This document shows positions 11,734 through 36,080 of a stretch of 39,748 nucleotides of DNA, piece by piece (positions within the stretch are counted from its first letter, which is position 1; every line of letters starts with the position of its first letter). Origin of the DNA: Polyangia bacterium (lineage in GTDB: Bacteria; Myxococcota_A; Polyangia; Fen-1088); NCBI GenBank assembly GCA_036268875.1, contig DATATI010000086.1, positions 1 to 39,748 on the forward strand. Reading direction: 5' to 3'. A program made the position numbers and the translations under genes. The notes under the pieces are model-generated. The model made no database searches and was not told the origin of the DNA. It was given only the letters and a program-made list of their open reading frames with translations.

Positions 11734-12782
11734 AAGACTGGAAGCTGCAGTTGGATCAAAGCCGGGGCCTGCTGCTGGCCATCGGCCTTTTCATGGTGTT
11801 TTACTGCCTGTATTCGTCGCAGCACCCGCGCGGGTTCACGGCGCCGCTGTTCGGCCAGAACGCCAACGAATCGTTCGTGCTGGCCACGGCGGCGATGGCG
11901 CAGACGGTCCCCATCATCACCGGCGGCCTGGATCTGTCGGTGGGCGCGGTGGTGACGCTGGTGGATTGTCTGGCCTCGCACCTTCTGCACGGCACCGGCG
12001 GACAGATCTTGCTGGGGATTTTTCTGTGTCTGCTGGCCGGCACCGCGTGCGGCCTGGCCAACGGGTGCCTGGTGGTGTACGGCCGGCTGCAGCCGATCAT
12101 CGCCACGCTGGCCTCGGGGACGATCTTTCTGGGGTTGGCCTTGTTCCTGCGGCCCACGCCGGGCGGCAACGTCGACGGCGATCTGGCCTTTGCCATGACC
12201 TTCGACGTCAACGAAACGCTGGGCTACTTTCACCTGGCGCCGAAGGGCGCGCTGGGTTTCGTCGGCAAGATCCCGACCCCGCTGCTGTTGCTGACGGCGC
12301 TGGCGTTGAGCTGGGCGTACTACAAACGCACGCGGCTGGGCCTGGGCACGTATGCCATCGGCGCCTCGCCGGAGGCGGCGTACATGTCCGGCGTGCGCAT
12401 CAAGCGGGTCAAGGTCGGCGCCTACAGCATGGCCGGCTTCTTTGCGGCGGCCGGCGGACTTTATCTGGCCATGCAGACCGGCGCCGGGAACGCGGACATC
12501 GAACAGGCGGGCGCGTACACGCTGAACTCGATCGCCGGCGTGGTGATCGGCGGGACCTCGCTTTACGGCGGGATGGGCGGCGCGGTGGGCTCGATCTTCG
12601 GGGCCCTGGTGCTGCGGGCGGTGGCCTTCAACTTCCGCGTCTTCGACGAGAAATCGGCATTGGGCTTTCTGGCCAACCCGCTTTATCAACCTTTGTTCGA
12701 AGGCCTGATCTTGCTGATCGCGGTCTGCGCTGGCGCGTTCTGGGTGCTGCGGTTGAAAAACCGGCTGCACGTGTTTCGGTGA
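11730..12782 (+). CDS. Sugar ABC transporter permease, first subunit (BPD_transp_2)
   Basis: 350 residues from a GTG that overlaps the ATPase stop by 4 bp. It is very hydrophobic, with about ten membrane segments. Family signatures are ITGGLDLSVGAVVTLVDCLASHLL in the first third, LANGCLVVYGRLQPIIATLAS, YAIGASPEAAYMSGVRIKRVKV (the cytoplasmic loop that contacts the ATPase) and LNSIAGVVIGGTSLYGGMGGAVGSIFGAL near the end. These identify RbsC/XylH-type CUT2 permeases. It probably pairs with the second, different permease downstream to form a heterodimeric channel, unlike RbsC homodimers. Its stop overlaps the next start by 4 bp, giving three consecutive coupled genes. Confidence 0.92.
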   Translation: MKDWKLQLDQSRGLLLAIGLFMVFYCLYSSQHPRGFTAPLFGQNANESFVLATAAMAQTVPIITGGLDLSVGAVVTLVDCLASHLLHGTGGQILLGIFLCLLAGTACGLANGCLVVYGRLQPIIATLASGTIFLGLALFLRPTPGGNVDGDLAFAMTFDVNETLGYFHLAPKGALGFVGKIPTPLLLLTALALSWAYYKRTRLGLGTYAIGASPEAAYMSGVRIKRVKVGAYSMAGFFAAAGGLYLAMQTGAGNADIEQAGAYTLNSIAGVVIGGTSLYGGMGGAVGSIFGALVLRAVAFNFRVFDEKSALGFLANPLYQPLFEGLILLIAVCAGAFWVLRLKNRLHVFR

Positions 12783-17592: not shown

Positions 17593-19362
17593 TTACGAGC
17601 CGAAGTCCGACCAGCGCGGCGAGGCGGCAAAAGCCGCGTGAATCAACCCGACGTGCGAATAGGCCTGCGGGAAATTGCCCCACATAAGGCCGGTGTCGGG
17701 ATCGAAGTCTTCCGACAGGAGGCCCAGCGGCGACTGGATCTCACGCACCTTGGCCAGCACCGCCTGCGCCTCTTCCGTTCGGCCCAGGCGGGCCAGGGCG
17801 TCGACCAACCAGAACGTGCACAGGGTGAAGGCGACCACCGGAGTGCCGAAGCCGTCGTTGGTCCGGTAGCGTTTCAACCAGCCGTTGTGGCCGAGATCAG
17901 CGCGCACCGCCTTGACCGTCTCGTGCATGCGCGGATCGCTGGGCGGTAAAAGGCCCAGCGTGATCGCCTGCAACAGGGCCGCGTCGACCTCGTGGCCGCC
18001 ATAGTCGGCCACCAAACAGCCGCGTTTGGGATCGACGGCCTTGGCCAGCAGCTCGTCGCGGATCTTGGTGGCGGCGGCGGCGAACTCCTGGGCGTCGGCG
18101 GGGCGGTGGCGATGAGCGATGTGGCTCATGCGATCGGCGGCCGCCCAGCACATGAGCGAGCTGAACGTCTGCGGCTTCCATTCGGAACGAAACTCCCAGA
18201 TCCCTGCGTCAGGCTGGCCCGCCACCGCGACGGCGCGCCGGCACAGACGCGTGGCCAGATCCATCACCGGCGCCGTCACCTGCTCGCGAAAGCGCGCGTC
18301 CAGAAACAGCGGCGTCAGCGCCAGGATCATCTCACCGAAGACGTCGTACTGTTTGTGCACGGCCGCGCCGTTGCCCACTCGCACCGGCTTTTCGCCTTGG
18401 TATCCCGGCCAATCGGTCAAGATCTCTTCGGCCAGGTCGGATCGTCCGTCGATGCGATAAAGCGGCGCCAGATCGAGATCAGGCGCCGCCGAGGCCACAT
18501 TCAGCAGGAAGCCCAGGAACTGCTCGCGCTCTTCAAAGTGCCCCAGCAGGCGAAAGGCGTTCAAGGTGTAAAAGGCGTCGCGCAGCCAGCAATAGCGATA
18601 GTCCCAGGTCCGTCCCGATCCGGGCGCCTCCGGGATCGACGTGGTCAGCGCGGCGACGATGGCGCCGGTGTCTTCGAAGCAGTGCAGCTTCAGCGCCAGC
18701 GCCGACCGGATGACCTCTTCTTGATAGATGGGCGGGATGTCGCAGTGCTTGACCCACTGTTGCCAGTAACGGGTGGTCTCAAGCAGGAATTGTTCACACA
18801 GCGCTTGCAGCGGTTCTTGCACCGGCGCGCCCCAGGCCAGCACGAAGTGGCGGGTTGCGGTCAGCGCGAACGGATCGCCGGTCAGGTAGGTCAGCGGGGC
18901 GTCGGTGGTCAGGCGCAGCTCGTCGCTGAAACCGAGATAGCTGACGTGGTGCGAGCCGAACTCGGGCCGCGGCCGTTTTCGCGACCAGCCGAGGATCGGA
19001 TCGCACAGCACCCGGATGCGAGGCGTGCCCGACAGCGGTTCCACGATGCGCACCAGCTTGGTCGGCATGAAGCTGCGATCGTGGCGAATAAAACGCGGCG
19101 CGAAATCAATCACTCGAAACGCGCCGTCGGGGGCGTCGAAGCGCGTCTCCAGCACGTTCGTGTTGGGGATATAGCGCTGCACACCGGGCACCGGCGTCGC
19201 CGGGCCGATCAGAAATTGCCCGCCGTCGGTCTCGTCGAGCAAGGCCGCGAACAGCGGCGGCGAATCGAAGCGCGGCATGCACGACCAGACGATGGCGCCG
19301 TCTCGCCGTACATGCGCCGCCACCCGACAGTTCCCGACAATGCCAAGGTCAGCCAACGCCAT
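17593..19362 (-). CDS. Glycoside hydrolase family 15 (glucoamylase/trehalase-like)
   Basis: 589 residues from ATG 19362. A TTG at 19428 would add 22 residues, but MALADLGIVGNCRVAAHVRRDG aligns with the usual N-terminus of bacterial GH15 proteins, so the internal ATG is preferred. Features: N-terminal beta-domain with WSCMPRFDSPPLFAALLD, a linker, then the alpha/alpha-barrel with SGRTWDYRYCWLRDAFYTLNAF (the GH15 substrate-binding WDYRYCWLRD block), YGGHEVDAALLQAI and GTPVVAFTLCTFWLVDALARLGR near the end. GH15 members of this length hydrolyse alpha-1,4 or alpha-1,1 glucosidic bonds; several from actinobacteria and others are trehalases. Head-to-head orientation with the trehalose synthase/phosphatase fusion, start codons 149 bp apart, supports a trehalose or maltooligosaccharide role. 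Cytoplasmic, no signal peptide. Confidence 0.88.
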   Translation of the reverse strand: MALADLGIVGNCRVAAHVRRDGAIVWSCMPRFDSPPLFAALLDETDGGQFLIGPATPVPGVQRYIPNTNVLETRFDAPDGAFRVIDFAPRFIRHDRSFMPTKLVRIVEPLSGTPRIRVLCDPILGWSRKRPRPEFGSHHVSYLGFSDELRLTTDAPLTYLTGDPFALTATRHFVLAWGAPVQEPLQALCEQFLLETTRYWQQWVKHCDIPPIYQEEVIRSALALKLHCFEDTGAIVAALTTSIPEAPGSGRTWDYRYCWLRDAFYTLNAFRLLGHFEEREQFLGFLLNVASAAPDLDLAPLYRIDGRSDLAEEILTDWPGYQGEKPVRVGNGAAVHKQYDVFGEMILALTPLFLDARFREQVTAPVMDLATRLCRRAVAVAGQPDAGIWEFRSEWKPQTFSSLMCWAAADRMSHIAHRHRPADAQEFAAAATKIRDELLAKAVDPKRGCLVADYGGHEVDAALLQAITLGLLPPSDPRMHETVKAVRADLGHNGWLKRYRTNDGFGTPVVAFTLCTFWLVDALARLGRTEEAQAVLAKVREIQSPLGLLSEDFDPDTGLMWGNFPQAYSHVGLIHAAFAASPRWSDFGS

Positions 19363-19510
19363 GATCGGTTCGTCGCAAAGATTGGGGTTTTTCTGGAGGA
19401 GGTCAAGAGCCGTCAGACCCGGCTCCAAAAATATTCATCAGGGGGTTCCCTTGGCGGGAAAAGGTCCTAGATTCGGGAGGGCACCTTTAACAGCCCCCGG
19501 TGAGGTGTCC

Positions 19511-21739
19511 GTGCGTCGGGTCATTCTGGTCTCCAATCGTCTGCCCGTCGCGGTGAGCCGTCGTGACGGTGTGCTGTCCGTCGACCGCAGCAGCGGCGGG
19601 CTGGCCACTGGCCTCGGGCGCGTCCACAACCAGGGCGACAGCGTGTGGATCGGATGGTCGGGTTACAGCGACGCGCTGGACGCCGCCGAGCAAAGCGCGC
19701 TGGACCGCCAGTTCGAAGAGCTGCGGGTGGTTTCCGTGCCGCTGTCGCACGACGAGGTCGAGCGTTACTACGAAGAGTTCTGCAACGGCGTGCTGTGGCC
19801 GCTGTTTCATTATCTGATCGGCCAGCTGCCCCCCGATGTGCACGGCTTTGAGCTGTACGAGTCGATCAACCGCCGGTTCGCCGACGCGGTGGTGGCGCAG
19901 TACCGGCCGGGCGACGTGATCTGGATTCACGACTATCAGTTGATGCTGGTGCCGCAGATGGTGCGCGAGCAGCTTCCCGGCGCGCGCATCGGATTTTTTC
20001 TGCACATCCCTTTCCCGGCGTCGGACGTGTTCCGCACGCTGCCGTTTCGGGATCGCCTGCTGCAAGGCCTGCTGGGCGCCGACCTGGTAGGGTTTCACAC
20101 CGCCGAATACATGCGCCACTTCGCCTCGGCCGCGCTGCGCATCCTGGGCGTGGGCACCGACGTCGACTGCCTGCGCTGGGATCAGCGTTCCGTGCGCCTG
20201 GGCGTCTTCCCGATGGGCGTCGACGCTCAGCACTTCGCCGAGCTGGCGGAGTCGCCGGGCGTCAAGGAGCAGGTGCGCGTCCTGCGCAACGGAGGCCAGA
20301 CCCAGCTGCTGGTGGGGATCGATCGCCTGGACTACACCAAGGGCATACCGCGACGCCTGATCGCCTACGAACGCCTGCTGCTCGAGCATCCGGAGCTGCG
20401 CGAGAAGGTCCGCCTGATCCAGGTGGCGGTTCCTTCGCGCACCAACGTCGACGCCTACCAGACGTTTCGCGAGCAGGTGGACACGATGATCGGGCGCATT
20501 CACGGCGCCTTCGCCACACCGAACTGGGTGCCGATCCACTACATCTTTCGTGGCCTACCAGAGGACGAGGTGGTGGCGCTCTATTGCGCCGCCGACGTCA
20601 TGCTGGTGACGCCGGTTCGGGACGGCATGAACCTCGTGGCCAAGGAGTTCGTCGCCTCGCGCAACGACGACGGCGGCGTGCTGGTGCTGAGCGAGTTCGC
20701 CGGCGCGGCCCACGAGTTGGCCGAGGCGGTGCACGTCAACCCGTTCGATTCGGTGGGCATGGCCGAAAGTTTTGCCCGCGCCCTGGACATGCCGACCGAC
20801 GAGCGGGCCACGCGCATGCAGGCCTTGCGGCGACGGGTGTTCGGGTTCAATGTGCACCGCTGGGCCGAACTTTTTCTGTCGCGCCTCGACCAGGACACCG
20901 AGGAGGCCACCGCGTCTGCGCGCGTCCTGGGCGAATCGTCGATCCGTGAGCTGGCCAAGCAGATGGCCGCCGCCCAGCAGCTGATCCTGCTGGTCGATTA
21001 CGACGGCACGCTGGTGCCCATCGCCAGCACGCCCGAACTGGCGCGTCCCGACGCTGCGGTCATGACGTTGCTGGCCAAGGTGGCGGCGCGGCCGGGCACC
21101 GAGGTGCACGTGGTCAGCGGGCGGCCGCGCGACACGTTGGAGCGCTGGCTGGGACGGCTGCCGATCTATCTTCACGCCGAACACGGCTCGTGGTCGCGCG
21201 CGCCTGGACAGCCGGGCGTGGCCCTGGAAGAAAGCTTGCCGGCGCCCTGGCGCGAGAAGGTCCGGAGCATCCTGCGCGAGTACGCCGATCGCACGCCGGG
21301 CACGCTGGTCGAGGAGAAACCGACCGGCCTGGCCTGGCACTATCGGATGGCCGATCCGGAGTTCGGCCCGCTGCAGGCCAACGAGCTGCGCGTTCACCTG
21401 ACCGAGCTTCTGAGCAACACGCCGGTGCAGATCCTGTCCGGGCGCAAGGTCATCGAGCTGCGCCAGCACGGCGTGCACAAGGGTCTCGTGGTGGCGCCCA
21501 TTCTGGCGCGTCACCCCGAGGCGTTGATGGTGGCGATGGGGGACGACACCACCGACGACGATCTGTTCGCGTCGCTGCCGCCGAACGCCATCAGCATCCA
21601 CGTCGGCCCGGCCGAGTTCCGTTCGACGCTGCGCATGCGCAGTCCAAGCGACGTGCGGTTGCTGCTTAGCCTGATCGCCGAGGTGCCGCCGCCCGTGCCG
21701 CCGCTCAAGACACCAGTCGCTGCGGTGGTGGCGACCTAG
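19511..21739 (+). CDS. Trehalose-6-phosphate synthase/phosphatase fusion (OtsA-OtsB)
   Basis: 742 residues. Start GTG 19511 gives [13 protein letters not shown], the standard OtsA N-terminus; a GTG two codons upstream is possible. Residues about 1-475 are a GT20 glycosyltransferase: [26 protein letters not shown] (typed here [13 protein letters not shown]), GVFPMGVD, and the donor site [10 protein letters not shown] where Arg272 and Lys277 match the UDP-glucose/phosphate-binding pair of E. coli Ots[14 protein letters not shown] closes the active site. Residues about 485-735 are a HAD-type trehalose-6-phosphate phosphatase with motif I DYDGT (496-500) and motif [10 protein letters not shown] (677-684). 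The fused protein would make trehalose from UDP-glucose and glucose-6-phosphate in two steps. Such fusions are common in eukaryotes and occur in several bacterial groups. Confidence 0.92.
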
Positions 21740-21808
21740 CGCTTGTCGCCGACTTGCGCCCGTCGCCCGCCGACCCCAGGTTTCCCCCTGCCTTCCCCGA
21801 AGGCGACG

Positions 21809-23524
21809 ATGCGCTACCACGTGCTTGCCTCCGACTATGATGGGACGTTGGCCAGCGACGGGCGCGTGGAGCCAGCGATGCTGGCGGCGCTCGAGCGGGT
21901 GCGGGCGTCGGGGCGCAAGGTCTTGCTGGTCACGGGCCGTCAGGTCGACGATTTGCTGACGGTGTTTCCCCAGGTGACGCTGTTCGATCGGGTCGTCGCC
22001 GAGAACGGCGCGGTCATTTACAACCCGACCACCCGTGAACGCCGGGCCCTGGCCGAGCCACCGCGCGCGGACTTTGTCGCGCTGTTGCGCAAGCGGGGTG
22101 TCGAGCCGTTGGCCGTGGGGCAGGTCATCGTCGCCACCTGGCAGCCGCACGAAGCCACCACGCTGGACGTGATCCGCACGCTGGGGTTAGAGCTGCAAGT
22201 CATCTTCAACAAGGGCGCGGTGATGGTGCTTCCGTCCGGCATCAACAAAGCGTTCGGCCTGCAAGCGGCGCTGGCCGAGCTGGGGCTGCACGCCCACGAC
22301 TGCGTCGGCGTCGGCGACGCCGAAAACGATCACGCCTTCCTGGCCGTGTGCGAGTGCGCGGTGGCGGTGGCGAACGCCTTGCCCATGCTGAAAGACCGCG
22401 CCGATCTGGTCACCACCGGCGCGCGCGGCGACGGCGTGCGCGAGCTGTGCGACGCCCTGGTCGACGGTGATCTGGCGGCGGTCGGCGCCCGTCTCGGACG
22501 GCACGACTTGACGATCGGCCACACGATTCCCGACGGACAACCGGTCAATGTGGCGGCGTACGGACCGCCACTGCTTATCACCGGGACCTCGGGCGGCGGC
22601 AAGTCGACGCTGGCCACCACGCTGCTGGAAGCGCTGGGCGGGGCCGGTTACCAATATTGCGTCGTCGATCCGGAGGGCGACCACAGCGAGATCGGAGGCG
22701 CTGCGGTGTTGGGCGGCGCGGGTCATCCTCCCGGCGTCCAAGAGGTGCTGGAGGTTCTGGCCACCCCCGGGAACAACGCCATCGCGAACCTGGTCGGTGT
22801 TTCCTTCAGCGATCGGCCGGCGTTTCTCGACGCCTTGTTGCCGCGGCTGCAAGAGATGCGGGCCCGCACTGGCCGGCCGCACTGGATCGTCGTCGACGAG
22901 GCGCACCATCTTTTGCCGCACGATCGCCCGGAGGCTTCGTCAGCCTTCCCGGCGCAGCCGCACAACCTGGTCCTCATCACGGTTCACCCGGAGCACGTCT
23001 CGACGGCGGTCTTGCGTCCGGTCAGGCTGGCCATCGCCATCGGCGCCGAGCCGGCCCGCACCCTGGCCGAGTTCGCGCGCGCGCTGGGTGTGAGCGCGCC
23101 TGCGGTGCCGCTCGCCGAGCTGCCGCGCGGCGAGGCGCTGGCCTGGCGGCCGGAACAGAAGACAGCGGCGGTGCGCTTCAAGGTCGATCAGCCACGCGCT
23201 CAACGCCGCCGCCACATTCGTAAATACGCCACCGGCGAGCTGGGGCCAGATCGCAGCTTTTATTTTCGAGGGCCCGGCGATCGCCTGAATCTGCGCGCGC
23301 AGAATCTGGCGATCTTTCTTCAAGTGGCCGACGGCGTCGACGACGAGACCTGGCTTTTCCACCTGCGGCGAGGTGATTACGCGCGCTGGTTTCGCGATTC
23401 GATCAAGGACGCCGAGCTGGCCGGGGAAGTGGCAGCGGTGGCATCCAGCGCCGCCGATGATCCGGTTGCTTCGCGCCAACGCATTCGCAGCGCTGTCGAG
23501 CAGCGCTATACCGCGCCGGAGTGA
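21809..23524 (+). CDS. HAD-IIB phosphatase fused to HerA/DUF87-like NTPase
   Basis: 571 residues; ATG 21809 is used because MRYHVLASDYDGT places HAD motif I at its normal N-terminal position. Residues 1-235 form a Cof/sucrose-phosphatase-like HAD hydrolase: motif I DYDGT (Asp9, Asp11), VLLVTGRQ motif II, Lys in FNKGAVMVLPSGINKAFGL, and motif IV GDAEND (169-174). Residues about 250-470 form a P-loop NTPase: Walker A GTSGGGKST (259-267) and Walker B WIVVDEAHHLLP (Asp363-Glu364), as in HerA/DUF87 ATPases that couple ATP use to DNA or protein translocation. A C-terminal region (475-571) with FYFRGPGDRLNLRAQNL and HLRRGDYARWFRDSIKD is unassigned. It follows the OtsAB fusion by 69 bp, same strand. 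The substrate sugar phosphate and the role of the NTPase are unknown. Confidence 0.85.
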   Translation: MRYHVLASDYDGTLASDGRVEPAMLAALERVRASGRKVLLVTGRQVDDLLTVFPQVTLFDRVVAENGAVIYNPTTRERRALAEPPRADFVALLRKRGVEPLAVGQVIVATWQPHEATTLDVIRTLGLELQVIFNKGAVMVLPSGINKAFGLQAALAELGLHAHDCVGVGDAENDHAFLAVCECAVAVANALPMLKDRADLVTTGARGDGVRELCDALVDGDLAAVGARLGRHDLTIGHTIPDGQPVNVAAYGPPLLITGTSGGGKSTLATTLLEALGGAGYQYCVVDPEGDHSEIGGAAVLGGAGHPPGVQEVLEVLATPGNNAIANLVGVSFSDRPAFLDALLPRLQEMRARTGRPHWIVVDEAHHLLPHDRPEASSAFPAQPHNLVLITVHPEHVSTAVLRPVRLAIAIGAEPARTLAEFARALGVSAPAVPLAELPRGEALAWRPEQKTAAVRFKVDQPRAQRRRHIRKYATGELGPDRSFYFRGPGDRLNLRAQNLAIFLQVADGVDDETWLFHLRRGDYARWFRDSIKDAELAGEVAAVASSAADDPVASRQRIRSAVEQRYTAPE

Positions 23525-23526
23525 CT

Positions 23527-25023
23527 CTAGACGATGCCGATGGACATCGGGTCCAGTGCCTGCGGACCGGTGAAGCCGTAGAGCGATCCGGTGATCGGCC
23601 CGCTGGGCGTGGTCCGCGTGATCTGATCGCCCGGCTTCACCATGCCCATCTTCTGGGCGATGATAGTGAGCAGGGGCGAGTGTGACATGTACCGCAGGCC
23701 GCTGTGCAAGCCGCCGCTGTACGCGGGAACGCCGTTGGTGAAGTTGATGGCCTGGCCCAGCTTGAAGCCCAGGTTGCGGCCGCCGATGAACACGAAGGGT
23801 ATGCGGTCAGTCTTGTGCGGTCCACCGTCGCCCAGCTCGGAGCAATGAAAGATGATGGTGTTGTCGAACAACGTCGTCCCGGGCATGTCCGGGTCGGGCG
23901 TGGCCTTCATGCTGGTCACGAACTGGGCCAGGCGCTGCGCGAACCACTCGCGGTAGTTGCGCCAGGCGGTCAGCTTGGCGTCGACCTGCGCAGGGGTGGC
24001 GTTGCCGACCAGCTGGCCGGGAGGGGCGTTGAAGTGCGAGGCGTCGTGCACACCGAACGGCCCCAGCCCGGTGATGGGGTTGTGCGCGTTGGTGTGGCCG
24101 TACAGCAGCGTGATCACGCGCGTGCGGCCGCAGGCCAGGGCCAGCCGTGAGATCTCCATCTGCAGATCCGCCACCGTTCCCTGGCCGGCGGTCTGTTCGT
24201 ACGTCGACTGGGTGAAGTCGCTGACCTGCGGAACCATGAAGTGCGTCGGGTTGAAGGTGGAGAAATCCGTGCACATCGCCGAGTTCGACATGTTCGCCGG
24301 ATCGGTCAGGCGCATCTCCAACGTGCGGACCGCGTCGGTGTACGACGCGATCTTGTTCTTCTCCGAATTGGGGAGCCGGCTGGTCAGCGAGTTCAGATCC
24401 GCGGTGGCGATGTCCAGCACGCTCTTGCGCTGCTTGGCCAGCAGCATGGCCGCCTTCATGGCGTCCGCGCTGTTGTTCATGGTGGCGGGTGCGCCCGAGC
24501 CGAACACCGAGCTGAAGGCCGCCAGTGGGTTGTCCTCGGCGAACACCTCGTGCGCCAGGGAGATGCGCGTGAAGTGCGGGTGCGGCACCGTCGGCGTTCC
24601 GCCCTTGCTGATGCGCGTCTGCACGCCCAGCTCCAGCGACGAGATCGGCGTCAGGGCCTTCAGGAAGTCGCCCAGTTGCAGGTCCAGCGTGGTGACGTCC
24701 TTTTCATCGCCGGCCAGCATCTGCTGCGAACCGCCCTGGTGGTCGTTGAGCGGCACCATCGAGATGCCGTCCATGAAGATGCAATCGGAGGCGAAGGGCT
24801 GCAGCGGTGCCGACAGCCGTGGCAGGGTGAAGGTCGCGCCGGTGTCCGTGGTGTGCCACATCGGCGGCTCCACGCCGCACGGGGTGTAAAAGAACACCAC
24901 CTTCGGCACCGGACCGGTGGTGGCGGCGCGTCCGGTGTGCATCCGGAACGCCTGCGCCAGCGGCGCCGCCAGGGCGCTGGCCGCCAGGCCTTTGATGATT
25001 CCTCGCCGTTTAATCTTTTTCAT
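23527..25023 (-). CDS. DUF1552 secreted protein with Tat-like signal
   Basis: 498 residues. The N-terminus KKIKRRGIIKGLAASALAAPLA carries a twin arginine followed by a hydrophobic core, consistent with Tat export of a folded protein. The body matches DUF1552: VPKVVFFYTPCGVEPPMWH, DCIFMDGISMVPLNDHQGG, DLQLGDFLKAL, ELGVQTRISKGG, NTIIFHCSELGDGG and FVFIGGRNLGFKLGQAI. The fold is thought to relate to alkaline-phosphatase-like DUF1501/DUF1552 proteins, common in Planctomycetota and Myxococcota, with unknown substrate. The start codon overlaps the stop of the upstream DUF1592 gene (ATGA at 25020-25023), so the pair is translationally coupled. Its 3' end meets the HAD-NTPase gene with a 2-bp gap, with no room for a dedicated terminator. 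Confidence 0.9.
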   Translation of the reverse strand: MKKIKRRGIIKGLAASALAAPLAQAFRMHTGRAATTGPVPKVVFFYTPCGVEPPMWHTTDTGATFTLPRLSAPLQPFASDCIFMDGISMVPLNDHQGGSQQMLAGDEKDVTTLDLQLGDFLKALTPISSLELGVQTRISKGGTPTVPHPHFTRISLAHEVFAEDNPLAAFSSVFGSGAPATMNNSADAMKAAMLLAKQRKSVLDIATADLNSLTSRLPNSEKNKIASYTDAVRTLEMRLTDPANMSNSAMCTDFSTFNPTHFMVPQVSDFTQSTYEQTAGQGTVADLQMEISRLALACGRTRVITLLYGHTNAHNPITGLGPFGVHDASHFNAPPGQLVGNATPAQVDAKLTAWRNYREWFAQRLAQFVTSMKATPDPDMPGTTLFDNTIIFHCSELGDGGPHKTDRIPFVFIGGRNLGFKLGQAINFTNGVPAYSGGLHSGLRYMSHSPLLTIIAQKMGMVKPGDQITRTTPSGPITGSLYGFTGPQALDPMSIGIV

Positions 25024-26732
25024 CGGTTCAAAGCCTCCACGGACCGACGAGCGGTGAACGAATCTTGAAGGGCCACTTGCACGAACAGCTCGGGCAAATC
25101 GAGATTGTTGGTCACGAAATCCTGTCCCAACTTTTGCACCGCATTGCCATCGGCCGGGTCACCTGTCTGTTGCGGATCGAAGCCGCGGAGGTATCGGAAG
25201 TAATTGGTTGCCAGACAGGCCTGGGCGTCTTTGCTGCCGGCGACGATGTTGGACAGCTCCTTGGCGCCGTTGAAGTTGATCGGCGCGGCCGTGATGCCGT
25301 TGATGGTCCCTGAGGTATCCACCATCTCGCCGTGGTCCATGGTGCGCGGCTGGGCAGCGCCGTCGAATCCTTCCAGACCAAAGCCGATGGGGTTCATCAG
25401 GCTGTGGCAGGTGTTGCACATTCCGCTGCCGGTTAGCGCCTGGATCTGTTCGCGGCCAGTATTGCCGGGCGTACCGGCCTTGATGGTCACGTCGACGCCG
25501 GGCGGTGGCGGCGGCACATCCGAGCAGAACATGTTGGCGCGAATGGCGTGACCGCGCTGGGTGGGCGAAGACTGATCAGCGCGGGCGTGGCCGAACAGGA
25601 ACATGCCCATCGTCAAAAGCCCGCCGCGCGCCGAGCCCGCGCCCAGCGAAACCTTGCTGACGTTCGCGCCCGAGCCGGGCGTCGGCAGGCCGTAGTACGT
25701 CGCAAGCTGATCGTTGACGAAGGTGTAGTCGGCCGAGAAAAGCTCGCTCCACTTCTTGGTCGAGTCGAAGACGATATTGGTGATGAAGGCGTCTTCTTCG
25801 GCCTTCATGGCGTTGACGATGGCGGCGCTGGTGGGAGCGTCTTTCAACGCCGGGAAAGTGGCCGGGTCTTTGGTCGCCACGTAAGCGCGCGAGGCCTCCA
25901 GCCATTCACCGGCGAACGCCGCCACCCGGGCGCGCCCGCGCGGATCCGCCAGCAAGCGGCGGACCTGCGTCTCGATCTCCTTCTTGTTGGCCAAGGCGCC
26001 GCTTTGGGCCGACGAGAACAGCGCATCGTCCGGCATGGTGCCCCAGTAGGCGTAGGACAGCGCCGAGGCGATCTCGAACGGCGACAGCACAAACTTACCG
26101 CTGCCTTTGTCGTCGCCGAGCTCGCTGCGCATCAGGAAGAACGGCGAGATCAACATGGCCTTGATCACCAGGCCGACGCCGGTCTTGAAGTCGCCGCCGG
26201 TCACGCTGGGGTCAAACAGCGTCAGGTAACGGGTCTGCTCGTCTGCCGGCAGCGGACGCCGGAAGGCGCGCAGCCCGAACTGCTGCACGAAAGTGGTGGC
26301 GCACGCCGTGTCCTGGGTCTGACAGGAGACCAGCTTGCTGAACGATTCTTGAACCGCCCGATCGGCCAGGGCGTCGCCCACCGACTGATACTTATCGACG
26401 TTGCTCATGTCGACGAACGCACTGGCGGCGTTGGTACTGTACCCGCGCACCGAAACGTCAGGCGGAATGTCCGTGGTGTTCGGGGCGCTGATCTGCAGCA
26501 AGTCGGCGACCGTGCTGCGATACTCATTGGCGGTCAATTGCCGCACCAGTCGGGGGCTCGGCTGTTCGGCACCGATCGGTTGGTTCGAAGAACCGCCACC
26601 GCCGCCGGTGGTGTTCGGTGGCATGTTATTGCCGCCGCCGCTGGTGGTGCCGGTGTTGCTGCCGCCTATCTCTCCGGAGCAGCCCACCGAGCCGATTGCG
26701 ATCAACGTCCAAACAAACGCAGTTGCCCGCAT
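25020..26732 (-). CDS. DUF1592/1588/1595/1585 haem-motif lipoprotein
   Basis: 570 residues from ATG 26732, giving MRATAFVWTLIAIGSVGC, a lipoprotein signal with Cys18; an upstream in-frame start at 26768 would add 12 polar residues and spoil it. A short Gly/Asn/Thr stalk runs to about 50. Domains in the usual order are: LVRQLTANEYRSTVADLL (DUF1587), FGLRAFRRPLPADEQTRYL (DUF1595), FVLSPFEIASALSYAYWG (DUF1592), RGGLLTMGMFLFGHA and TQRGHAIRANMFC (DUF1588) and a C-terminal DUF1585-like tail. One CXXCH motif, CNTCHSLMNPIGFGLEGFDG, is at 439-443, consistent with a single covalently bound haem. The family is always encoded next to DUF1552 proteins and is probably part of a surface redox or carbohydrate-processing complex; actual activity is unknown. 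Confidence 0.9.
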   Translation of the reverse strand: MRATAFVWTLIAIGSVGCSGEIGGSNTGTTSGGGNNMPPNTTGGGGGSSNQPIGAEQPSPRLVRQLTANEYRSTVADLLQISAPNTTDIPPDVSVRGYSTNAASAFVDMSNVDKYQSVGDALADRAVQESFSKLVSCQTQDTACATTFVQQFGLRAFRRPLPADEQTRYLTLFDPSVTGGDFKTGVGLVIKAMLISPFFLMRSELGDDKGSGKFVLSPFEIASALSYAYWGTMPDDALFSSAQSGALANKKEIETQVRRLLADPRGRARVAAFAGEWLEASRAYVATKDPATFPALKDAPTSAAIVNAMKAEEDAFITNIVFDSTKKWSELFSADYTFVNDQLATYYGLPTPGSGANVSKVSLGAGSARGGLLTMGMFLFGHARADQSSPTQRGHAIRANMFCSDVPPPPPGVDVTIKAGTPGNTGREQIQALTGSGMCNTCHSLMNPIGFGLEGFDGAAQPRTMDHGEMVDTSGTINGITAAPINFNGAKELSNIVAGSKDAQACLATNYFRYLRGFDPQQTGDPADGNAVQKLGQDFVTNNLDLPELFVQVALQDSFTARRSVEALNR

Positions 26733-27001
26733 GAAGGTTGGTACCCTGAGTTCGGCCGGACGGTCCAAAAAGTCGAGTTATTTACATGAATTTATTTGAC
26801 GAATATGGTCCAATCAGTTGCCTGCTCTACAAGCCGGTTGGGCCAATAAAGGACGCGAGCGATGCGCGATCGGTTATCTATGCGGGACAATCGTTTTTTC
26901 CATTCGCGATCCGGAAACCGTTTCACTAAAATGGCTCAGCCGGTTTCGCGCTGTTGTTGGCGCGACGGGTCTCAAACGCCATTTCTGGATCGGGTGGTGC
27001 A
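26733..27001. promoter_or_regulatory. AT-richer divergent promoter region
   Basis: About 270 bp between two divergent secreted-protein genes, clearly richer in A and T (for example around 26775-26810 and 26885-26935) than its surroundings. Both promoters should lie here. A -35-like TTGACG is at 26796-26801, but no -10 sits at the right distance, so I do not assign a promoter. No small gene is supportable. Confidence 0.3.
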
Positions 27002-31422: not shown

Positions 31423-33660
31423 GTGTCTGCTACCCACTTCGCGCCTGGTTGGGCAACGATTAGTCCGGACGCACTGGCCCACGTCGCATCGGATGGTCGC
31501 GGGCATTCGCTTGCTGAGCACCTTCGGGCAGTGTCTGACGGCGCCGGCATATTTGCACAACCGCTCGGATGTTCTGAGGAGGCTCGGCTGGCGGGCCTTT
31601 GGCATGACCTAGGAAAGTATTCTGGCGACTTTCAGCGGATGATCAGGCTGGAAAACGGAATCGAAGCCCACATTGAGGGCGAGGGCAATGAACGCGATCA
31701 TTCTTCTGCCGGCGCCATTCACGCCTTCAAAAGGGGAAAACACCTCTACGCCGTGGCGGCGGCCATCGCTGGTCATCATGCAGGACTGGCGGATCAGGCC
31801 GATTTGCGGCAGCGGCTGATTCTGAAACAACACCTCTATGAGGCGGTTGTCGATCGTTTGCCCCCGGCACCGATCCTCTCGGCAGCGGTCCCGGACGTCC
31901 CCGAATGGATCGCTGACGCCAAACCAGGCGACGAGGCCGTTTTGCTTCGTTTGGAGATGCACACTCGGATGCTCTTCTCGGCCCTGTGCGATGCGGACTT
32001 TCTGGATACAGAATTGTTTTTCAGTGTCGAACGCGCCGAGATGCGTTCTGGCCGGCCGAGTGTATCGTTCCTGGCTGAACGGCTTGATCTTTATCTGCAA
32101 CAGAAGGAGGCCGTCGCACCACCGACAACGGTGAATGTCGTGCGCGGGGAGGTGAGACGGGCATGCGCGGCGACGGCTGTTGACGAACCCGGCATCTTCA
32201 GTTTGACGGTCCCGACCGGTGGCGGAAAGACACTCGCGTCGATGAGCTTCGCCCTGGAACACGCGCGGCTTCACCGACTTCACCGCGTCGTGGTGGCAAT
32301 TCCCTTCACCTCGATCATTGAACAAACAGCAAGCGTGTTCCGTGATGTCTTCGGCGACGACGCGATCGTCGAGCATCACAGCGCTCTTGATCCGATTCAC
32401 GAGAAGGCGCGAAATCGCATTGCTTCGGAAAATTGGGACGCGCCCCTTATTGTAACGACGAACGTGCAACTGTTCGAGAGTCTTCTGTCGAATCGACCGT
32501 CGGCCTGTCGAAAGCTTCATCGGCTAGCCCGTTCCGTCATCATTCTCGACGAAGCCCAGGCGTTGCCCGGACACCTGTTGCCCGCGATCCTCGACGTATT
32601 GGCGCGGCTGGTTCAGCACTACGGCGCAACCGTAGTGATCTGCACCGCGACGCAGCCAGCCTGGTTCCGATCAGAACGTCTGCCGATGGGGTTTGCTGAT
32701 GTTCGGGAGATCTGTCCTTCCGACATGGATCTATTCGCGCGCCTGAGGCGCGTGGAAGCCACCGTCGAAAACGCGGACAAGGCGACGCCCTATGACGAGG
32801 TGGCGAGCTGGATCGCTGCGGAGCCCAATTGCCTTGCCATCGTTCATCGGCGCGACGATGCCCAGTCGTTGTGCCGAACGGTCGATGCCCGGCTTGCCGC
32901 GCCGTCTACGATCCACCTTTCAGCGCTAATGACTCCTGCGCATCGGTCGGAGGTGTTGGCGCAGGTTCGTCAATTGCAGCTGGCTGGCCGGCCCGTCCGT
33001 TTGGTGGCCACCCAATTGGTCGAAGCGGGCGTCGATCTCGACTTCCCGGTGGTATTTCGAGCGCTCGCCGGTCTGGACGCCTTGGCCCAGGCAGCGGGGC
33101 GCTGCAATCGCGAGGGACGGCTTGCTCGGGGAAGCCTGCGCATATTTATTGCGGAAACCGAACCGCCGCTTGGCGTGCCGCGGACCGGCCGCGACATCGC
33201 GCGAGTCATGATGGCCCGCCGACAGCTAGGGGATCTTTTCTCGCCCGCCGTTCAACTCCAATACTTCAGGGAGCTCTATGACCGCACAGACTTACGGCGT
33301 GGCCTGGAGTTGCAGAAACAACGGGCGAGCTTGAATTTCGCCACGGTATCCAAGTCTTTCCAGCTGATTCAAGACGGCTGGTCAGCCCCCCTGGTGATTG
33401 CGCACGGTGATGGAAAGTACCGTCTGGATGACCTCAAGGTGGCAGGACCGTCTCGATCCCGTCTGCGTGCCTTACAGAGATTCACCATCAATGTTCCTCG
33501 TCGTTTCCTGCTGAACTGGGTGAATGCTGGCGTGGTCAGCGTCGTTGCTGATTCGGTCCACGCCCTGGAAGGTCCCGCGCTGGCCAGTTACGACCCACGA
33601 TTTGGCCTGATACCGGAACGCATGGGCTATATCGATCCGACTCAATTGATCGTCGGCTGA
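31423..33660 (+). CDS. cas3: Cas3 nuclease-helicase, type I-C (HD + DExD/H)
   Basis: 745 residues from GTG 31423; no ATG gives the complete HD domain. The N-terminal HD nuclease has AGLWHDLGKYSGDFQ (His61-Asp62), a later His93 in RDHSSAGA, and AGHHAGLAD (His118/119), the metal ligands for single-strand DNA degradation. The SF2 helicase follows: Walker A PTGGGKT (264-270), VVVAIPFTSIIEQ (Ia), motif II DEAQ (376-379) in VIILDEAQALPG, CTATQPAW (III), and motif VI QAAGRCNREG (556-565). A C-terminal domain of about 120 residues ends the protein. Cas3 is recruited by target-bound Cascade and shreds the DNA. It is first in the operon, 12 bp before cas5c. Codon use looks less GC-extreme than the neighbouring chromosome. 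Confidence 0.95.
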   Translation: MSATHFAPGWATISPDALAHVASDGRGHSLAEHLRAVSDGAGIFAQPLGCSEEARLAGLWHDLGKYSGDFQRMIRLENGIEAHIEGEGNERDHSSAGAIHAFKRGKHLYAVAAAIAGHHAGLADQADLRQRLILKQHLYEAVVDRLPPAPILSAAVPDVPEWIADAKPGDEAVLLRLEMHTRMLFSALCDADFLDTELFFSVERAEMRSGRPSVSFLAERLDLYLQQKEAVAPPTTVNVVRGEVRRACAATAVDEPGIFSLTVPTGGGKTLASMSFALEHARLHRLHRVVVAIPFTSIIEQTASVFRDVFGDDAIVEHHSALDPIHEKARNRIASENWDAPLIVTTNVQLFESLLSNRPSACRKLHRLARSVIILDEAQALPGHLLPAILDVLARLVQHYGATVVICTATQPAWFRSERLPMGFADVREICPSDMDLFARLRRVEATVENADKATPYDEVASWIAAEPNCLAIVHRRDDAQSLCRTVDARLAAPSTIHLSALMTPAHRSEVLAQVRQLQLAGRPVRLVATQLVEAGVDLDFPVVFRALAGLDALAQAAGRCNREGRLARGSLRIFIAETEPPLGVPRTGRDIARVMMARRQLGDLFSPAVQLQYFRELYDRTDLRRGLELQKQRASLNFATVSKSFQLIQDGWSAPLVIAHGDGKYRLDDLKVAGPSRSRLRALQRFTINVPRRFLLNWVNAGVVSVVADSVHALEGPALASYDPRFGLIPERMGYIDPTQLIVG

Positions 33661-33672
33661 AGGGAGTCCTGC

Positions 33673-34329
33673 ATGTCGAAATCGAACAGCCGCAGCTTTC
33701 GTGTCTTGGTCTCAGGCCCCCTCGCCGTTTTTACGCGGCCAGAGATGAAGGCGGAGCGGGTGTCATATGAGGTGATGACCCCTTCTGCGGCGCGAGGCGT
33801 TTTGGAGGCCGTCCTCTGGAAACCGTCCATGCGTTGGGTGGTCACTGAGATCGCCGTCCTGAACGAGATTCGGTGGATGTCTTTTCGTCGCAATGAGGTG
33901 AACTCGAAGCTTTCACCACGAAGCCGCAATGACTACTTCGCCGACGAGGATCGGGCTCAGCGCAACACCGTGGCGCTTCGTGAGGTTGCCTATGAGATCA
34001 AGGCGCATCTTTGCCTGACGGAAAAGGCGGGCCCCGAGGAAACTGTCACAAAGTTCGAGGAGATGTTCGAGCGGCGGCTGGAGAAAGGGCAGACTTTCCA
34101 CCAGCCTTACTTGGGTTGCCGAGAAATGGCGGCCGACATTCGCGCGGCCGACGGGGAGAGAGAACCAATCAGCCTGTCAAAACCGCTTGGCCTGGTTTTT
34201 TACGATTTTGACTATCTGAGCGAGCCGCCACGACCTTTATTCTTCGAAGCCCGGCTGGATCGTGGCGTGCTTCGATTGCCTACGTGGGACGAAGTGAGGC
34301 GCGACAACCAAGGGAGAGCCGAGGAATGA
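33673..34329 (+). CDS. cas5c: Cas5c (Cas5d), crRNA-processing endoribonuclease, type I-C
   Basis: 218 residues with GGGAG upstream. It starts with SFRVLVSGPLAVFTRPEMKAERVSYEVMTPSAARGVLEAVLW, the subtype I-C Cas5 signature, followed by EIRWMSFRRNEVNSK and YLGCREMAADIRA and LGLVFYDFDYL. In I-C systems there is no Cas6; this protein cuts the precursor CRISPR RNA at the 3' base of the repeat hairpin and stays on the 11-nt 5' handle in Cascade. That agrees with the array here, whose repeats end in an 11-nt tail after the hairpin. Its TGA overlaps the ATG of cas8c by 4 bp (ATGA). Confidence 0.95.
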   Translation: MSKSNSRSFRVLVSGPLAVFTRPEMKAERVSYEVMTPSAARGVLEAVLWKPSMRWVVTEIAVLNEIRWMSFRRNEVNSKLSPRSRNDYFADEDRAQRNTVALREVAYEIKAHLCLTEKAGPEETVTKFEEMFERRLEKGQTFHQPYLGCREMAADIRAADGEREPISLSKPLGLVFYDFDYLSEPPRPLFFEARLDRGVLRLPTWDEVRRDNQGRAEE

Positions 34330-36080
34330 TGCTCCGTGCCCTGGTCGAGTTGGCCACACGCGAAGGCCTCGTCGAGAGCGATGACTTCGAAAAAAAGCGC
34401 GTCGATTTCGAGATTCAGATCGACGATGACGGGCGATTCGTCGGACTGATTAGTTTGCAGGGTGAAGACGGGAAAGGGCAGCGGATGTCCGTCCCTCGAT
34501 TTCCATCGCGAACAATGCAGGTGGTGCCTGGGTTCATGGTCGATAACGCGAAATATGTCCTTGGTATTGGTGACCCGAAGAAAGACAAGTCAGAGCGGTT
34601 GGCCAAATGCCAAGCTGCCTTTATCGGACTGATCAAAGATGCATTCACCGCGACGAAGGATCCGGGACTGTCGGCCCTGCTCGCATTCTATGAACGAATC
34701 GCCGACAATCTCGCGTCAGTCTTGCGCGACCGATCCGCTGACAAATGGTCAGGCAGCGAGATTCTTTTCTTTTCGGACCCAACGCTGGGCAGATTGCATG
34801 ACCGACCGGCCATTCGTGAATATTGGGCAGCGTTTCGAAACGCAGAAACCAACGATGGCGGCTCAACCGAGCGAGCGCGCTGTCTGGTCACAGGACGCTA
34901 TGACGTGATCGAGCGGTTGCACCCGATGCTCAAGCGGGTTCCAGGTGGCCAGTCGTCCGGCGCCGCCGTGGTCAGTTTCAATGCCGACGCGTTCGAATCT
35001 CATCACCTTTCGCAAGGCGACAACGCACCTGTATGTCGCTCAGCAGCGATCGCCTATACGACAGCGCTAAATTGGCTCCTCGAAAAGGTCGATGATCGTC
35101 CCCATCGGCACGGCGTTCGAATCGGGGACGATGCAGTTGCCCTCTATTGGACGACGGCGCCCGACAAAGCCTTGTCATTCTTTGCCGATCTATGGGAAGG
35201 ACCACGAAAAGAGGAAGCTGAGCGCTTCTTCGAATCGCCATGGAAGGGCCAACCGCCAGCCGATCTTGACCAGAATCGTTTCTATGCGGTCACATTGGGC
35301 GGCAATGCGGCGCGCGTCGTCGTCAGGGATTGGTTCGAGACGTCGATTGGCAAGGTGAAAGAAAACCTGAGCCAGTATTGCGATGATCTCGCCATCGGGG
35401 CTGTGCGACGACCGTTCGCGATCTGGCAGCTCTTGGCCGCCATCGATCCGCCGGGCAAGGCAACCGCTCCGCCCGACATGGGGGCGCGGGTTTTTGCCGC
35501 TTCCCTGAAGGGAACGCCGCTGCCACGGGAACTCCTTCGTCACGCACTTCTCCGTATGCGTGTGCCGGGGAAGAAGGCCGAAGCCTTTTGGGTCCTTGGC
35601 GCGCGGGTCGCGCTGATCAAGGCAACGCTCCTTGGAATTGGTAGGACGGACCAAAACAAGACGCACTTGAAGGAGGTCACCGTGTCATTGGATTCAAACA
35701 GCAACCTAACGGCCTATAACCTTGGCCGCCTTTTCGCCGCATTGGAGCGGGCTCAACAAAACGCCCTGGGTGATGTGAACAGTACCATCCGCGATCGCTA
35801 TTTCAGCGCCGCGACGATGACGCCGGCCCTGGTATTTCCCCGGTTGCTCCGAATGGCCCAACACCACATCGCCAAGGCCAAGGCCGAGAATCGAGAGTAC
35901 GGAATCGAACGAACGGTGACCGAAATCGTGGGCCGCCTTCCCGCGACCGGTTTGCCATCGCTGTTGACCCTTGAGGATCAGGGGTTGTTTGCCGTGGGTT
36001 ACTACCACCAACGAGAAGCTTTTTTCACAAAACGCAAGACATCTAATCCCCCCGCTGCTTCTGCTGCAGGAGAGGAGTGA
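34326..36080 (+). CDS. cas8c: Cas8c (Csd1), Cascade large subunit, type I-C
   Basis: 584 residues, the usual I-C size. ATG 34326 overlaps the cas5c stop and is preferred over the upstream open frame. Characteristic Csd1 segments are [122 protein letters not shown] and [21 protein letters not shown]. Cas8c recognises the PAM and stabilises the R-loop; in I-C an internal start in this gene is known to make a separate small Cas11c subunit from the C-terminal part. A possible internal start here is not resolved by eye. It ends 4 bp before cas7c. Confidence 0.95.

Follow-up and report, generated by a model that had tools for sequence, protein, structure and literature searches.

Organization of the locus

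The window analysed here is the whole 39,748-nucleotide stretch of contig DATATI010000086.1 from a Polyangia bacterium. Its positions 21809–23524 (forward strand) form an open reading frame that encodes a protein of 571 residues, with an ATG start codon at 21809 and a stop codon at 23522–23524. The frame itself is open from a TTG codon at 21743, and the start methionine at ATG 21809 is common to the homologues. The reading frame and its translation confirmed the ORF and the phosphatase and NTPase motif sets that an earlier note on this DNA had described. The OtsAB fusion that it had placed beside this HAD–HerA gene was confirmed as well: a gene for an OtsA–OtsB protein (GT20 and TPP domains; 19277–21739, forward strand) lies directly upstream, at a distance of 69 bp, and the two genes may be co-transcribed in the Polyangia genome. 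A GH15 trehalase-like gene (17593–19428, reverse strand) is divergent from the OtsAB gene. On the other side, tandem genes for a DUF1552 protein and a DUF1592/1588/1595/1587 protein (23527–26768, reverse strand) are convergent with the HAD–HerA gene, and the type I CRISPR genes for the Cas3 helicase and Csd1 (31423–36080, forward strand) are located ~8 kb downstream of it.

Domain architecture of the HAD–HerA protein

The gene product is a three-domain protein of a widespread bacterial family, composed of a HAD phosphatase, a stripped HerA core and an OrfY/DUF5752 module. The AlphaFold model of the protein had a mean pLDDT of 92 and a pTM of 0.81. The HAD-IIB phosphatase domain with a short C2b cap comprises residues 1–224 (21809–22480, forward strand). 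It matched PF08282 with an E-value of 2.8e-24 and scored 95.7 bits against the HAD-IIB profile TIGR01484, above the cut-off of 41.8. Motif I, DYDGT (residues 9–13; 21833–21847, forward strand), contains the nucleophile D9 and the acid/base D11 and is conserved in 71/71 homologues, and motif IV, GDAEND (residues 169–174; 22313–22330, forward strand), contains D170 and D174. The catalytic motifs are kept, as had been read from the sequence: D9, D11, T13, K147, D170 and D174 are invariant in all 71 aligned homologues. The nearest fold to the model is that of PH1421 (1wr8; VIA Z 27.6 across 221 residues, with an rmsd of 2.5), and TA0175 (Z 23.4) and the sugar phosphatases YidA and YbiV (Z about 24) also matched. 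From sequence and model, the HAD half is thus predicted to be an intact short-cap HAD-IIB phosphatase. Its scores remained below the cut-offs for archaeal phosphoglycolate phosphatases (TIGR01487, 99 versus 122.75; PRK01158, 87.7 versus 198), so the profiles do not fix the substrate. The trehalose-6-phosphate phosphatase family PF02358 was absent among the Pfam matches up to an E-value of 1.

Residues 229–467 (22493–23209, forward strand) form a HerA-type ATPase core, with fold matches to the HerA structures 9x1m (VIA Z 21.5, rmsd 2.8 over 224 residues) and 4d2i (Z 21.2). In the protein from the window, PF01935 (DUF87) is sub-threshold (18.7 bits versus a cut-off of 23.2); the best match among the homologues has an E-value of 1.3e-10. 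The assignment of the NTPase to the HerA/DUF87 type in the earlier note is supported by this significance in the homologues and by the clear HerA fold of the model. The NTPase motifs that it listed, GTSGGGKST (residues 259–267) and VVDEAHH (residues 361–367), are likewise kept. In Walker A (GTSGGGKS; 22583–22606, forward strand), G259, G264 and K265 are found in 71/71 homologues, and in Walker B (IVVDE; 22886–22900, forward strand), D363 is found in 69/71 and E364 in 70/71. The β2 aspartate, D287, is invariant in the 71 homologues, so that Walker A, the Walker B glutamate and the β2 aspartate of the HerA translocase are all present.

The protein was aligned with genuine HerA proteins from the phylum of the window (L167 and L169) and compared with the defining features of HerA (PMC10853773), in which a HAS-barrel is accompanied by a helix bundle inserted after β2 (PMC9960219) and full ATPase activity depends on K154, D176, E356 and R381 (PMC4351679). 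The first three of these residues have counterparts in K265, D287 and E364. The HAS-barrel is absent: the N-terminus is the HAD domain, and the HerA matches begin at approximately model residue 230 and at chain residues 118–152. The helix-bundle insert after β2 is also absent, as the distance from D287 to N327 is 39–41 residues in all 71 rows, with a gap relative to HerA. At the position of the HerA sensor-1 motif SQRP, where core strand 4 ends, the family has TVHP (22979–22990, forward strand), in which the glutamine is replaced (position 392 is V in 64/71 and position 393 is H in 60/71). The arginine-finger segment (EGRK), located in HerA just upstream of strand 4, is deleted, and arginine occurs in at most 7/71 homologues at every column from 368 to 390. 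Where HerA L169 has RIAKEGRKYGVSLLVVSQRPSDVSRTILSQC, the family member L031 has FPQELHGMVYITVHPDHVSRTILSSVD; the paralogue L163 (MREGGFGVVGYRPSQVAPSVL) looks intermediate and keeps a more HerA-like YRPSQV motif. Since these defining features of HerA/FtsK motors are absent, a hexameric motor is unlikely from both the alignments and the model. The NTPase is a stripped HerA core, and its role is more likely that of an ATP switch than that of a motor. R336 is invariant in the homologues and could act as an arginine finger supplied from elsewhere, which would make an oligomeric ATPase possible.

Because HAD matches occupied the fold search with the complete model, the C-terminal part was folded and searched separately (pLDDT 90). 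The C-terminal 95 residues had been noted as unassigned, but they can be placed. Residues 470–571 (23216–23521, forward strand) gave a profile match to OrfY of Thermoproteus tenax (4cso) with an E-value of 0.0021, the next match being at 0.28, and 4cso was also the top fold match (VIA Z 10.7 across 95 residues, with an rmsd of 2.4), followed by ViaA (7.3). In hhalign comparisons, the domain matched the two halves of DUF5752 (4.7e-6 and 1.8e-5) and the middle domain of receiver–PPDK_N proteins (1e-8). PF19027 (DUF5752) is below its cut-off in the protein from the window (15.4 bits versus 23), where a single unit rather than two tandem units is present, and the divergent member L115 just passes it (23.2 bits versus 23). 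The C-terminal part is best described, from profile and fold, as one OrfY/DUF5752-type unit.

The context of DUF5752 itself was examined in seven genomes with a strong match, and in all seven a DUF5752 gene directly adjoins a treT-like gene (L110, L111, L112, L113, L119, L180, L181 and L182, one locus being split over two contigs). The other DUF5752 copies are 52–73% identical to that of L112, whose treT-like protein has matches to the trehalose synthase structures 6zj4 (2.5e-129) and 2x6q and scores below the Thermococcales-specific NCBIfam cut-off. The adjacency in 7/7 genomes makes DUF5752 look like a standard partner of TreT and suggests that it is dedicated to this enzyme. The trehalose operon of T. 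tenax is given as tpsp-gt-msc in a part of the source that does not mention OrfY (PMC3634074). Through its C-terminal module, the HAD–HerA family thus has a predicted domain-level link to the trehalose synthase TreT, which is separate from the context of the locus.

Distribution of the family

Relatives were sought by a genome scan with peptide patterns from the HAD half, and the best 80 of at least 513 loci that encode them were kept. In 80/80 of these best loci, the match is full-length (residues 1–570), with about 48–58% identity; because the patterns came from the HAD half and only the best loci were kept, this number says little about the frequency of HAD-only forms. Tblastn searches of plasmids yielded 11 records with full-length matches (41–51% identity), from Synechococcus, Nonomuraea, Aminobacter, Sinorhizobium, Paraburkholderia, Caballeronia and Agrobacterium. 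The domain order is the same in the 80 best homologues and the 11 plasmid copies. This is the two-domain order that the earlier note had proposed to look for in other genomes, and its recurrence rules out that the fusion is an assembly artefact.

The homologues come from at least 14 phyla, and 14 named phyla are represented among the 71 sequences of the tree. Most sequences from acidobacteria, cyanobacteria and actinobacteria form clusters by phylum, and those from Planctomycetota, Pseudomonadota and Nitrospirota are mixed. The sequence from the window groups with Polyangiaceae, with moderate support (80/95). Within the phylum of the window the gene is patchy, the NTPase domain of the family being found in 10/379 genomes. 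The three-domain order is retained in the divergent members examined, L154–L165, of which L162 is cut off by the contig edge before its first residues; L166 is fragmentary and duplicates a portion of L157. Six NTPase-domain matches with diverged NTPase motifs (L157 and L162–L166) were observed in a single genome, G398, where one protein lies beside a partial copy. A HAD-only relative is encoded by the Nostoc plasmid pC052_B (L029, positions 12001–12666). It is 62% identical, has intact catalytic motifs and stops at residue 221, and no remnant of the NTPase was found in the 24.7-kb locus. This natural variant indicates that the phosphatase can stand alone.

Gene neighbourhood

The HAD–HerA family as a whole shows no fixed association with trehalose genes. 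The trehalose context described earlier holds for the window, in which OtsAB adjoins the gene and GH15 adjoins OtsAB, but it is a local trait: otsA is within reach in 2/96 homologous loci and GH15 in 1/96, the association with the OtsAB fusion is not conserved across the homologues, and the nearest relative (55% identical) has neither otsA nor GH15 nearby. These neighbour statistics rule out a trehalose operon as a trait of the family. Among 150 immediate flanking genes, no flanking family recurred, with no Pfam family present in more than 3/75. As a raw observation, genes with stress or carbohydrate functions (Dps, hemerythrin, universal stress protein, CBS, PRC-barrel and GT4) are often present in the annotated flanks of the plasmid copies. 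The Aminobacter plasmid locus contains otsA, an amylo-glucosidase and a GT4 gene.

Proposed function

The explanation that we favor, at a probability of about one half, is that of a soluble metabolite phosphatase under the control of a nucleotide (ATP) and a partner protein. The ATP-controlled phosphatase suggested in the earlier note is thus retained as the most plausible option. The HAD half would dephosphorylate a small metabolite, either of the phosphoglycolate type or of the sugar-phosphate or glycerate-phosphate type. When the HerA-derived domain binds ATP or slowly turns it over, its contacts with the cap or with an oligomer interface would change, and these altered contacts could gate the phosphatase by energy state. 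The C-terminal module may be a docking site for a metabolic partner, a role that DUF5752 probably plays for TreT. The catalytic site, the ATP site and the C-terminal fold on which this proposal is built are derived from conservation and models. The proposal agrees with HAD motifs that are invariant in 71 homologues and a family that extends over at least 14 phyla, with metabolite phosphatases as the nearest structures, with the natural HAD-only variant, with an ATP site that is kept while the motor features are absent, with the recurrence of the C-terminal module in receiver–PPDK_N proteins and of its duplicated form beside treT, and with the fusion of the three domains even in divergent paralogues. 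Against it are the scores below the phosphoglycolate phosphatase cut-offs, the lack of a conserved metabolic partner in the immediate flanks and the possible oligomeric ATPase with R336 as its finger.

The HerA fold would also fit a HerA-type ring that acts on nucleic acid and uses the HAD domain as an effector, as in the SIR2-HerA or DUF4297-HerA anti-phage systems. A profile match to the NTPase chain 8j4u (3.8e-7), matches to the PADLOC mad8 and HerA models and the type I CRISPR locus ~8 kb downstream point in this direction. However, the HAS-barrel, helix bundle, arginine-finger segment and sensor glutamine of such rings are absent, the mad8 match is generic (144/144 genomes searched and 14/14 control genomes), no defence neighbours recur, and no viral or phage copies of the family were found. 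We consider such a machine improbable, and a defence system was rejected as a candidate because the mad8 match is generic and no phage or viral copy was found. The PADLOC model PDLC04140 (mad8) picks up FtsK/HerA-type ATPases in all genomes tested, including the controls, so a match to it should not by itself be taken as evidence of a defence gene.

We give little credence to a bifunctional enzyme in which the P-loop domain is a kinase opposed by the HAD domain on one metabolite, a kinase-like activity having been raised in the earlier note. The stretch from Walker A to β2 does match APS kinases best (7yq0, 2e-5), but beyond such weak P-loop matches no positive support emerged: the fold of the whole domain is that of HerA (Z about 21), with the Walker B glutamate and a HerA-like strand order, and neither an acceptor site nor a lid was identified. 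A dedicated enzyme or regulator of the trehalose pathway, such as an additional trehalose-6-phosphate phosphatase or a protein that controls OtsAB, is quite unlikely as well. It is suggested by the position of the gene, which follows otsAB after 69 bp on the same strand, by the Aminobacter plasmid locus and by the occurrence of the OrfY/DUF5752 module next to treT, yet otsA and GH15 are found in only 2/96 and 1/96 loci and in neither case in the nearest relative, PF02358 (TPP) is unmatched, and OtsAB already has a TPP domain.

A broader and more tentative extension of the gated phosphatase is that the family may represent a widespread class of phosphatases that sense energy state. In these, an ATPase from a DNA motor, reduced to a nucleotide switch, would be combined with a HAD-IIB domain and with an OrfY-type docking module. 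This module would also act for TreT and PPDK-like proteins and would be a common regulatory adaptor of sugar and energy metabolism. The NCBI names for the proteins are 'HAD-IIB family hydrolase' or 'HAD hydrolase family protein', and no papers that describe the architecture or are relevant to DUF5752/OrfY were found in the open literature, outside of which many subscription journals lie. The parts are known, and their combination and the stripped HerA core appear to be undescribed. The ATPase core of HerA has apparently been co-opted away from DNA translocation in a protein of at least 14 phyla. If ATP gates the phosphatase, this would be a new way to couple energy state to metabolite dephosphorylation, and the family offers a clue to what the unexplained OrfY/DUF5752 proteins do.

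Comparison with known systems

The HAD half shares the short-cap fold and the full catalytic set with the archaeal HAD-IIB phosphatases PH1421 and TA0175 (TIGR01487). However, those enzymes are stand-alone proteins, whereas the protein from the window is below the TIGR01487 cut-off and carries two extra domains. With the hexameric translocase HerA (4d2i and 9x1m; DUF87), it has in common the RecA-like core, Walker A, Walker B and the β2 aspartate; the HAS-barrel, helix bundle, sensor glutamine and arginine-finger segment of HerA are all missing from it. The C-terminal domain has the fold (Z 10.7) and motifs of OrfY (4cso) and DUF5752 (PF19027), but OrfY/DUF5752 is a free-standing duplicated domain and the protein from the window contains one unit, fused to an ATPase and a phosphatase. 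An OrfY-like module is also found in the central position of receiver/OrfY-like/PPDK_N proteins of about 900–1000 residues (L118 and L128–L134; hhalign E-value 1e-8). They differ from the HAD–HerA protein in the partner domains of this module, namely a response-regulator receiver on the one hand and a PPDK_N domain of the ATP-grasp type on the other.
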